NCBI RefSeq assembly: GCF_903642285.1
Contig: NZ_CAHJWJ010000009.1
Coordinates: forward strand, 1-64,000
DNA from: Sphingomonas bacterium
Lineage (GTDB): Bacteria; Pseudomonadota; Alphaproteobacteria; Sphingomonadales; Sphingomonadaceae
Length of the DNA stretch: 64,000 nucleotides
Reading direction: 5' to 3'
Below, in pieces: positions 24,186-63,773 of this stretch. The notes beneath the pieces are model-generated. The model did not search any database. It was not told the origin of the DNA and was given only the letters and a program-made list of their open reading frames with translations. The translations under genes were made by a program, and so were the position numbers. The stretch's first letter is position 1. Every line of letters begins with the position of its first letter.

Positions 24186-24980
24186 TTACAGCAGGAAGAC
24201 GTCGGCGGCGTGAATGACACGCCGCTCGCCGCCCGCCAAGCGCAGCATGAGCGCGCCGTCCGCGTCGAGCCCGTCGAACAGCCCGTCGATCGCAGCGCCG
24301 TCCGGCAGCCGGGCGGTCAACGCGGTGCCTACGGGGTGCGCACGATCCAGCCAGCGGGCGCGGATCGGCGCGAGTCCTTCGCCGCGCCACCGATCCAGCC
24401 AGCGCGCGAACGCCTCGGCCAGCGTTTCGGCGAAGTCCGCGGGGGAGACCGTCGCGCCGCGATCCGCGAGGCTTGTCGTCGGACGGTCGGACAGATCGGG
24501 ATGATGCGCGAGGTTGACGCCGATACCGACGACCACTGCGTCGTCGGCGCGTTCGAGCAGGATGCCAGAGAGTTTCGCGCCGTCTAGGACGAGGTCGTTG
24601 GGCCATTTGAGCTCCAACTCACCCCGGCGAAGGCCGGGGCCCAGTTGGGAGAACGGTAATTGGCGAGCGCCACCCGCCGTCACATCGACCTTAGCGACTG
24701 AGCCCCGGCCTTCGCCGGGGTGGAGATATACGGACACTCCCTCCTCCACCGCCACCGCCGCCACGAGCGCCAGTGTCGCCGCAGCGGGATCGGTTCCCCG
24801 GAGCCGCACCAACGTACTCGCGTAGAAATTCCCAACCGGGGACACCCAGGCCCGCCCCAGCCGACCCCGACCCGCGGATTGTCGCTCGGCCCGCAACCAG
24901 ACCGCCTCGCCGGTGCCGCTCCGCGCGAGCGCCAGCATGTCGGCGTTGGTCGATCCCGTCTCCGCGACGGTACGGATCAT
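24186..24980 (-). CDS. birA: Biotin--[acetyl-CoA carboxylase] ligase with an in-frame repeat insertion
   Basis: Attaches biotin to the biotin carboxyl carrier protein. 264 residues, no N-terminal DNA-binding domain, so a ligase only. Motifs: TGSTNADML (8-16), [12 protein letters not shown] (34-45, biotinyl-AMP loop), [11 protein letters not shown] (124-134) and KLSGILLE. Between VYL (84-86) and ELELKWPND lies about 35 residues with no counterpart in typical BirA; they are encoded exactly by a palindromic repeat at 24620-24722. The insertion keeps the frame and falls just before the KWPND motif, probably at a surface loop. 13 bases after the nuoN stop. Confidence 0.92.
24620..24722. repeat. 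REP-type inverted repeat inside the birA coding sequence
   Basis: A perfect 21-base inverted repeat: left arm 24620-24640 beginning CACCCCGGCGAAGG, right arm 24702-24722 beginning GCCCCGGCCTTCG, separated by 61 bases. The arms match the core of the REP palindromes found between genes at 30056, 60254, 62392 and 63691. Here the element encodes residues 87-121 of BirA without a stop or frameshift. Confidence 0.9.
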
Positions 24981-30055: not shown

Positions 30056-30139
30056 CGTCACCCCGGCCTTGTGCCGGGGTCCAGAGCCAAGCAGCGCCAC
30101 GCCCGTGACCCTGGACCCCGGCACAAGGCCGGGGTGACG
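30056..30139. repeat. REP-type palindrome pair between nuoK and nuoL
   Basis: A perfect 29-base inverted repeat (30056-30084 and 30111-30139) beginning CGTCACCCCGGCC and ending GGCCGGGGTGACG, with a 26-base spacer. It fills the gap between nuoK and nuoL and would form a strong hairpin in the nuo transcript, which could protect or pause it. Confidence 0.9.
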
Positions 30140-31071: not shown

Positions 31072-31080
31072 GAGTTCGTA

Positions 31081-31168
31081 ACCCCCGCGAAAGCGGAGGC
31101 CCATCGCGCGACGGCGGTGGCAAGCCCGACGAGCAGGAACTGGATTCCCGCTTTCGCGGGAATGACGG
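31081..31168. repeat. REP-like palindrome pair, diverged, between nuoI and nuoJ
   Basis: Left half at 31081-31104 with CCGCGAAAGCGG, right half at 31140-31168 with CCCGCTTTCGCGGG followed by AATGACGG. Each half is itself a hairpin and the two halves are roughly inverted copies. Same layout as the 30056 element but with a different core and several mismatches, so an older or different subfamily. Confidence 0.75.
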
Positions 31169-60253: not shown

Positions 60254-60337
60254 CGTCATCCCGGGCTCGTCCCGGGATCCAGAGTCGCTGACGATCCGCC
60301 TTGTGGCTCTGGATGCCGGGACGAGCCCGGCATGACG
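60254..60337. repeat. REP-type palindrome pair
   Basis: 31-base arms at 60254-60284 (CGTCATCCCGGGCTCG...) and 60307-60337 (...CGAGCCCGGCATGACG), near-perfect inverted copies with a 22-base spacer. Sits between the serine hydrolase and the multifunctional beta-oxidation gene. Confidence 0.9.
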
Positions 60338-62391: not shown

Positions 62392-62474
62392 CGTCACCCC
62401 GGCCTCGTGCCGGGGTCCAGAGCCCCAAGCGCGACGTCTGTGGCTCTAGATGCCGGGACAAGCCCGGCATGACG
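62392..62474. repeat. REP-type palindrome pair
   Basis: 31-base arms at 62392-62422 (CGTCACCCCGGCCTCGTG...) and 62444-62474 (...AAGCCCGGCATGACG) with a 21-base spacer. The two arms are of slightly different subtypes. It fills the gap before the acyl-CoA dehydrogenase gene. Confidence 0.9.
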
Positions 62475-63690: not shown

Positions 63691-63773
63691 CGTCACCCCG
63701 GCCTTGTGCCGGGGTCCAGAGCAAACAGCGCCACGCCCGGAACCCTGGATCCCGGCACGAGGCCGGGATGACG
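63691..63773. repeat. REP-type palindrome pair
   Basis: Left arm 63691-63721 (CGTCACCCCGGCCTTG...) and right arm 63745-63773 (...GGCCGGGATGACG), imperfect inverted copies with a 23-base spacer. The left arm is nearly identical to that of the 30056 element, so these two belong to the same subfamily. Confidence 0.9.

Follow-up and report, generated by a model that had tools for sequence, protein, structure and literature searches.

A CGTC-like REP dimer read in frame within the biotin ligase gene of a Sphingomonas genome, and recurrent palindromic insertions in BirA and SufC of its relatives

The DNA analysed here, in the following called the window, is a stretch of 64,000 nucleotides from a Sphingomonas genome (G000), and it carries a birA gene that encodes a biotin--[acetyl-CoA-carboxylase] ligase (Table 1). 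The gene product matches Pfam PF03099 and PF02237 in a profile scan and TIGR00121 above the family cut-off, the latter in two stretches, and the biotin-ligase families are recognised across the palindromic insert described below and to either side of it. In an alignment of 48 BirA sequences, the KWPND motif as well as the columns G37, G39, R40 and G42 of the GRGRxG motif are invariant. A structure predicted by AlphaFold2 with this alignment (mean pLDDT 85.8) has solved biotin ligases as its top Foldseek matches: with both motifs and the BPL fold, the window protein has the features by which biotin protein ligases are recognised. A preliminary description of the locus had named the presence of a second birA as an argument against its reading; a protein search of G000 detected a single copy of the gene, and the other matches were further copies of the repeat. 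Both birA and sufC, the second gene considered in this study, are essential in well-studied bacteria.

According to that description, a perfect 21-base inverted repeat with a 61-base spacer lies within birA, leaves the reading frame open, and encodes residues directly in front of the KWPND motif. The coordinates and the open frame are borne out, and the perfect inner part indeed has 21 nt with a spacer of 61 nt; if imperfect pairing is allowed, the arms have the dimensions given in Table 1. The inner ends of the dimer read CCCAGT ... ACTGAG, those of the genomic family mostly CCCAGTTG ... CAACTGGG. The RNA form of the segment has a folding z-score of -6.6 relative to 200 shuffled sequences. 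The structure model that had been proposed as a check places the insert in a predicted disordered loop between the helix formed by residues 67-86 and the KWPND strand. Since AlphaFold2 predicts disorder for this part and the fold as a whole is matched by biotin ligases, the insert can be regarded as a predicted flexible loop on an intact enzyme.

Table 1. Features of the birA locus and related palindromic elements (window positions unless a locus is named)
Feature	Position	Strand	Basis or remark
birA, biotin--[acetyl-CoA-carboxylase] ligase, 264 aa	24186..24980	-	open reading frame, no internal stop
KWPND motif, residues 125-129	24594..24608	-	invariant in 48/48 aligned BirAs
REP dimer (head-to-head), residues 87-121 in translation	24620..24722	-	inverted repeat; resembles 67 genomic dimers in structure, spacing and inner ends
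REP arm 1, 26 nt	24620..24645	.	inverted-repeat search
Hairpin CCCCGGC-GAAG-GCCGGGG, 7-bp stem, 4-nt loop	24622..24639	.	
Residues 90-117, predicted disordered, pLDDT <50	24630..24713	-	AlphaFold2; between helix 67-86 and strand 122-125 (KWPND strand)
Inter-arm spacer, 51 nt, stop-free in birA frame	24646..24696	.	core-to-core distance 81
REP arm 2, 26 nt, 96% complementary to arm 1	24697..24722	.	inverted-repeat search
Hairpin CCCCGGC-CTTC-GCCGGGG, 7-bp stem, 4-nt loop	24703..24720	.	
Five other head-to-head dimers of related type in the window	30056-30139, 31077-31167, 60254-60337, 62396-62470, 63695-63769		four with 5-nt loops
REP dimer in third reading frame, PPRRRPGP...GPRPAPGRR	L027:1501-1596		exosortase-associated acyl-CoA ligase, G000
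sufC insert loci	L313-L326, L378, L413-L423		26 sampled Sphingomonadaceae genomes

The element belongs to a large family in its own genome. Its 18-nt core is found at 242 places of the 3.05-Mb G000 genome if up to three mismatches are allowed, as compared to 13 places for the reversed control. The own-genome loci examined contain 67 distinct head-to-head dimers (at most four mismatches per core), with a core-to-core distance of 77-82 nt in 63 cases and of 81 nt, as in the birA copy, in 17. Since this distance and the similar inner ends match, the birA element is a complete member of the genomic family. The preliminary description had moreover reported that the core recurs elsewhere in the window. 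This holds for elements of related type, of which there are five other head-to-head dimers, but not for the exact 18-nt core, which has no further match in the 64,000 nt at up to three mismatches. On two of the five (30056-30139 and 60254-60337), CGTC and GACG ends were seen on both sides. The two cores of the window copy are preceded by ACTCA and CTCCA rather than by an unpaired CGTC tag (or TGTC, CCTC), and by eye such a tag stands beside the core in one row of the 67 genomic dimers, L280. Similarly, the hairpins of the window copy (7 bp, loop of 4 nt) deviate from the 8-9 bp stems and loops of 4-5 nt of CGTC-tagged REPs, with which the element shares the predominant head-to-head dimer arrangement and a CCA-like tail (inner end CCCA). 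Because the tag is missing and the stem has 7 bp, we call the window element a CGTC-like REP dimer and not a formal member of the family.

On average, 4.4 of the six reading frames of the genomic dimers are open, versus 3.8 if the spacers are shuffled with preserved dinucleotides, and none of 200 shuffles reached 4.4. This hints at an avoidance of stop codons; as the dimer copies are related to each other, we draw nothing from the excess. With so many open frames in a GC-rich dimer family, an open frame by itself is weak evidence. A profile search for the Y1 transposase family PF01797 gave no match in G000 and a match in one of 32 other genomes of the genus, and as a marker of the mobilising agent this family provided nothing useful. 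The outer flanks of several G000 dimers are short inverted repeats (gcca/tggc, cccct/agggg), possibly a clue to the choice of the target or to an extension of the stem.

Two sets of birA loci were used for the comparison with relatives. The first comprises 80 loci chosen by similarity to the insert-bearing query; the second covers 148 of the 151 genomes of a genus sample (G020 and G122 gave no usable birA, G088 is absent). Because the first set is biased toward inserts, frequencies were taken from the second. Together, the overlapping sets contain 228 sequences, 45 of them duplicates and 183 distinct, and all 228 are in frame and free of stop codons over the aligned part. REP-derived inserts are present in the linker of BirA in 15 of the 148 genomes (L001, L119-L129, L143, L154, L204), or in 14 of 147 without the window genome: ten are two-hairpin dimers by a strict pattern, four have one hairpin, and one (L154) has a variant stem. 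Among 159 distinct uninserted linkers, 135 have 11-17 residues (full range 11-31), and the nearest clade of the tree, 15 other loci, lacks the repeat. The claim that typical BirA has no counterpart of the extra residues, and the prediction of an insertion of about 35 residues that is missing in relatives, are thus both supported.

The BirA inserts fall into several subfamilies in two reading frames: one is of the type PGEGRGP..., another reads HSRERGNP...DPRVRGEDG with its relatives, and a third, VAPAKAGA...APASAGAT, is out of register with the first (all in translation). The insert of L051, which occurs in the first set only, is of the type ...GPGFRRDD and has CGTC tags, as have the inserts of L043 and L084. 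Stems of 8 bp are found in both hairpins of L122 and in one of the two of L043. The inserts of L055, L047 and L154 consist of a single perfect hairpin of 11, 14 and 17 bp, respectively, L080 has kept a single arm, and L087 has lost the REP hairpins, all of them with the frame preserved. In L154, L047 and L055, the hairpin stems seem to continue into the sequence of the host, as would result from the collapse of a dimer by template switching. L087 and L091, with decayed hairpins, were scored as inserted by homology, and L058, perhaps a remnant, as uninserted. A conserved 23-residue linker (VAGICQGTTDAS) that is not palindromic and contains no REP was observed in 14 loci among L156-L181. It is carried by G018, G034 and G092, three genomes that have 240-280 matches to the REP core pattern and no REP in the birA linker.

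To place the inserts on a phylogeny, a tree of all 183 loci was built with FastTree from nuoN, coaX, rnj and the birA core with the insert excluded. The insert is present in 24 of the 183 tips, and 15 changes are required on this tree to account for its presence and absence. Judged by eye, no fewer than 11 separate lineages carry it among relatives with an empty site. Six of the 11 lie within one clade of 19 members with weakly supported deep branches, and their elements differ. In the FPGEGRG clade (L119, L126, L124, L127, L204, L087 and L091), the residues before the insert change along with it (EETVSTF versus DETARVF in the sisters), and these sequences make a transfer of an insert-bearing allele likely. 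For this reason the clade was counted as one lineage, and not all of the 15 changes can be taken as fresh insertions.

The dimers are concentrated in the linker of birA. The 183 loci contain 16 dimers in 6.6 kb of linker and 8 in the other 1.08 Mb, corresponding to a density ratio of about 300, and in the 148-genome sample there are 10 in the linker and 6 elsewhere. Within nuoN, coaX and rnj, as far as these genes were aligned at the 183 loci, there is none: all paired hairpins outside birA are located beyond the aligned stretches, at positions consistent with the gap between coaX and rnj and with the end of rnj. The nuoM span was not used for this control because the nuoM query overlapped with the homologous nuoN. 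Four unpaired hairpins occur in nuoN at one homologous place and probably represent a codon stretch and not an insert. By eye, no common target motif was seen in the flanks of the inserts.

Distant BirAs with the same segment but without the palindrome would contradict an insertion in this lineage. In a sample of the family, in which 136 of 139 genomes have a match (G000 and the genus member G010 are included, four rows are partial or split, and the lengths were compared by eye), no BirA exceeds a query with a short linker by more than 14 residues net. The class sample (126 of 133 genomes with a match, lengths again compared by eye) is less clear-cut: G305 and G380 have 26 and 22 net additional residues, the next genome 18, all counted over the whole match, and these two may represent a long, palindrome-free BirA loop in a distant genus.

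For five pairs of insert-bearing BirAs, of which three were drawn from the same three species, synonymous and nonsynonymous divergence was determined. The core dN/dS is 0.067-0.084 for L123/L125, L123/L095, L120/L045 and L124/L127 (dS 0.26-0.55, dN 0.018-0.037) and 0.093 for L125/L095 (dS 0.301, dN 0.028), with the insert in place. L087 and L091 are nearly identical, and L043 and L122 are unequal in length. With a core dN/dS of about 0.07-0.09, the insert-bearing relatives are under purifying selection, as is typical of working enzymes. Within the inserts, the five pairs differ by 2-15 changes at a dN/dS near 0.45-1.2, too few changes for the individual ratios to be trusted; the dS of the insert is below that of the core in all five.

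A second gene, sufC, is entered in the same manner. Five of the 151 genomes of the genus sample had no match better than 3e-7 and were dropped; at least 15 of the remaining 146 have an insert in SufC, 14 by alignment across the insert and G019 on reading. In a family sample (137 genomes with a good match, G000 included), an insert is present at the same point in at least 11 genomes of 10 other genera. The values of 15 of 146 and of 11 are lower bounds, since most other genomes were judged by the start of the alignment and not by sequence. On the tree, the first 14 cases of the genus (before G019) require 13-14 changes. All 26 SufC inserts examined (Table 1) are located at the same junction, with VTxGxxxF on one side and DLL or NLL on the other, and all 26 hold a head-to-head inverted repeat that exceeded each of 100 shuffles in 25 cases and was matched by 2 of 100 in L318. 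At least six kinds can be distinguished: CGTC-like REPs with 4-nt loops, CGTC-like REPs with 5-nt loops, and four kinds named after their translations, VRAEPVEA...PSTSSGRT, PLPSREGPGVG...PTPGPSLSGRGE (with a PLPLAGG relative), RHxERSDA...LLRSARND and FASSEVE...DFARDE. The VRAEPVEA arm has 14-118 matches in five carriers of the genus and 8-113 in five carriers of other genera, as compared to 0-1 in three closely related genomes without an insert; 18 matches were counted in G000, whose SufC holds a different repeat. These counts fit an insertion from the pool of each genome itself. The Walker and signature motifs are intact in seven aligned inserted SufCs. A tryptophan precedes [IVLA]DLL at the junction in all 15 inserted SufCs of the genus and in none of 35 uninserted sequences fetched, and in 2 of 11 outside the genus; it may reflect convergent compensation or an older shared allele in which the repeat has been turned over. 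In the clade of G079, G019 and G143, two repeat families occupy the one site, one of them also in a collapsed form. Of the two hotspots, SufC is the stronger one, and more repeat families have entered it.

How often such elements reside in genes of G000 was estimated from 78 distinct elements (65 dimers and 13 singles), in loci of mostly 3 kb and with those less than 450 nt from a locus end excluded. Of these, 38 lie in one or more open frames with at least 50 residues on each side, 51 frames altogether; 21 frames including birA were scanned, and the other 30 ranked lower by codon-position GC. At least three of the 78 elements are inside conserved genes, birA, sufC (L312) and the gene of the exosortase-associated acyl-CoA ligase (L027). 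The remaining 18 scanned frames have a protein family on one side only (eight) or none (ten).

Taken together, it is quite probable that the birA segment is a full-length resident REP dimer that was inserted in frame and is now a loop of a working ligase, and that this loop is a recurrent landing site at which insertions are filtered by selection. Dimers from the resident repeat pool would insert into genes by some agent, with no Y1 transposase detected in G000. Selection would then remove most insertions in genes, and those that preserve the frame, bring no stop codon and fall into permissive surface loops would survive. The loop between the helix and KWPND is one such landing site, entered by different REP subfamilies in many Sphingomonas lineages, and some inserts have subsequently decayed, lost one arm or collapsed to a single perfect hairpin with the frame kept; SufC provides a second landing site for more repeat families. 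The sequences directly show insertions next to relatives with an empty site, their recurrence, the preserved frame, the origin of the element from the repeat family of the genome and the purifying selection on the ligase. The insert is presumably translated and accommodated by the folded enzyme in the cell. With respect to the mobilising agent, and to permissiveness rather than target preference as the factor that sets the sites, we infer the mechanism from the distribution of the inserts. Because the same spots have been entered repeatedly by different repeats, birA and sufC mark places that tolerate mobile DNA as new protein.

Could the palindrome be a chance feature of an ordinary BirA loop, or an error of assembly? 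Uninserted loops do vary in length, but the element matches a dimer family of 67 copies with a core far more frequent than its control, and comparable inserts are present in other assemblies; copy number and relatives already contradict this idea, which is hardly credible. More serious is the possibility that the mobilising process itself favours the two sites by sequence, local structure, replication strand or a small pre-existing palindrome, and that selection merely purges frameshifts. The roughly 300-fold density of dimers in the linker, the entry of unrelated repeats between the same residues of SufC and the absence of dimers from three neighbouring genes all speak for such a preference, and pure permissiveness strains to explain the repeated entry of the same loops while nuoN, coaX and rnj escape. 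However, the point of entry into BirA varies by several codons and two reading frames are used, the flanks share no motif visible by eye, and the REP-rich genomes G018, G034 and G092 have no REP in the linker, so that we regard target preference as a serious but rather unlikely rival.

An equally serious rival is that an older allele with an insert has spread and its repeat has been exchanged: one or a few old insertions would have been distributed by recombination, and the palindrome would later have been overwritten by resident repeats through nested insertion or gene conversion. The co-variation of flanking residues in the FPGEGRG clade of BirA, the tryptophan at the SufC junction of every inserted genus sequence, the two repeat families at one site in the clade of G079, G019 and G143, and an insert synonymous divergence lower than that of the core in five pairs, albeit from few changes, are all as expected from such a history. 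Yet in at least 11 birA lineages the inserted tips stand dispersed among relatives with an empty site, nearly each sufC case forms a lineage of its own, the repeats in SufC match the pool of the respective genome, and the residues just downstream of the SufC insert follow, by eye, the lineage and not the insert; we therefore consider this history improbable as the general explanation. Finally, the inserts might be kept for a benefit: for example, an mRNA hairpin could tune the nuoN-birA-coaX transcript, or the loop could change how the enzyme is regulated. The strong RNA hairpin, the recurrence in two housekeeping genes and the few synonymous changes within the inserts could be taken in this way. 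Against it, 133 of the 148 genus genomes do without a REP in the birA linker, inserts have decayed, been reduced to one arm or collapsed with the frame preserved (L080, L087, L047, L154), and the families and sequences involved are not related, a pattern more in line with tolerance than with a single common function; a selected benefit is thus very unlikely.

Returning to recurrent, filtered insertion as the preferred reading, it is tempting to speculate that Sphingomonadaceae have dedicated protein-coding landing sites in the loops of SufC and BirA. Unrelated dimers would insert there repeatedly from the resident pools by a common process that needs no Y1 transposase and recognises the architecture of the dimer and not its sequence, and loops of about 15-45 residues would be gained, swapped and lost. 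This extension is doubtful at present. Independent of it, two housekeeping genes with many parallel insertions make the question of how palindromes become protein countable, with frame, family, age and decay at one site, and loops of BirA and SufC in annotations of Sphingomonadaceae can be derived from repeats.

Palindromic repeats in frame have been known since the work on Rickettsia, mostly as scattered cases, and Sphingomonas is, unlike Rickettsia, no obligate intracellular parasite. REPINs are mobilised by RAYT (IS200/IS605-like) transposases. According to the portion of the survey text of Di Nocera 2013 that was available (PMC3733652), REPINs are of the GTAG type and linked to RAYTs. The birA element resembles them in that two inverted REPs about 80 nt apart form one unit; beside the window cores there is no GTAG, and G000 lacks PF01797. 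An NCBIfam scan of seven proteins at E 0.01, with protein models and no DNA model of the Rickettsia palindromic elements (RPE), gave only enzyme families among the matches listed. Neither 'sphingo' nor 'in-frame' has a match in the available text of the RepRanger 2025 paper (PMC12306157).

The CGTC REPs are among the nearest known counterparts. In the same portion of the 2013 survey, they are described for alphaproteobacteria including sphingomonads, among them Sphingomonas wittichii, with in-frame intragenic members inside genes of S. alaskensis, Erythrobacter litoralis, R. conorii and others; RPE-6 and RPE-4 of R. conorii are assigned to the CGTC superfamily as CGTC-1 and CGTC-4 (PMC3733652). 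The proposed likeness to the protein-coding palindromic elements of Rickettsia is thus supported, and the kind was already reported in alphaproteobacteria in 2013. Those REPs apparently have no dedicated transposase, and whether they still form or move, and by what, was left open in that survey (PMC3733652). Insertions that are specific to a lineage, in genomes in which no Y1 transposase is detected, bear directly on this question. No birA or sufC case is named in the available survey text (PMC3733652), and none of the matches listed in the open-licence literature reports palindrome inserts in these genes.

The elements studied here share with CGTC REPs the short GC hairpins, the head-to-head dimers, the mostly intergenic location with some genic copies in frame, and the presence of several families per genome (PMC3733652). 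Unlike CGTC REPs, most dimers of the genomic family have no CGTC tag, and neither has the window copy. As in the case of the RPE, housekeeping genes of an alphaproteobacterium carry palindromic repeats in frame, and the in-frame occurrence in several coding genes of one genome that characterises RPE is seen in G000 (birA, sufC and the acyl-CoA ligase); unlike RPE, the host is GC-rich, the elements are about 100 nt long with a variable spacer, and unrelated families occupy the same site. For CGTC REPs, one shared site was reported, recB of two Xanthomonas species, and other genes of the same functional category were hit at different sites (PMC3733652), whereas here unrelated families enter one site in many lineages. 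Thus, measured against the available survey text, intragenic CGTC REPs are already published (PMC3733652), and what is new here are protein-coding palindrome hotspots at the same site that are shared by unrelated repeat families.
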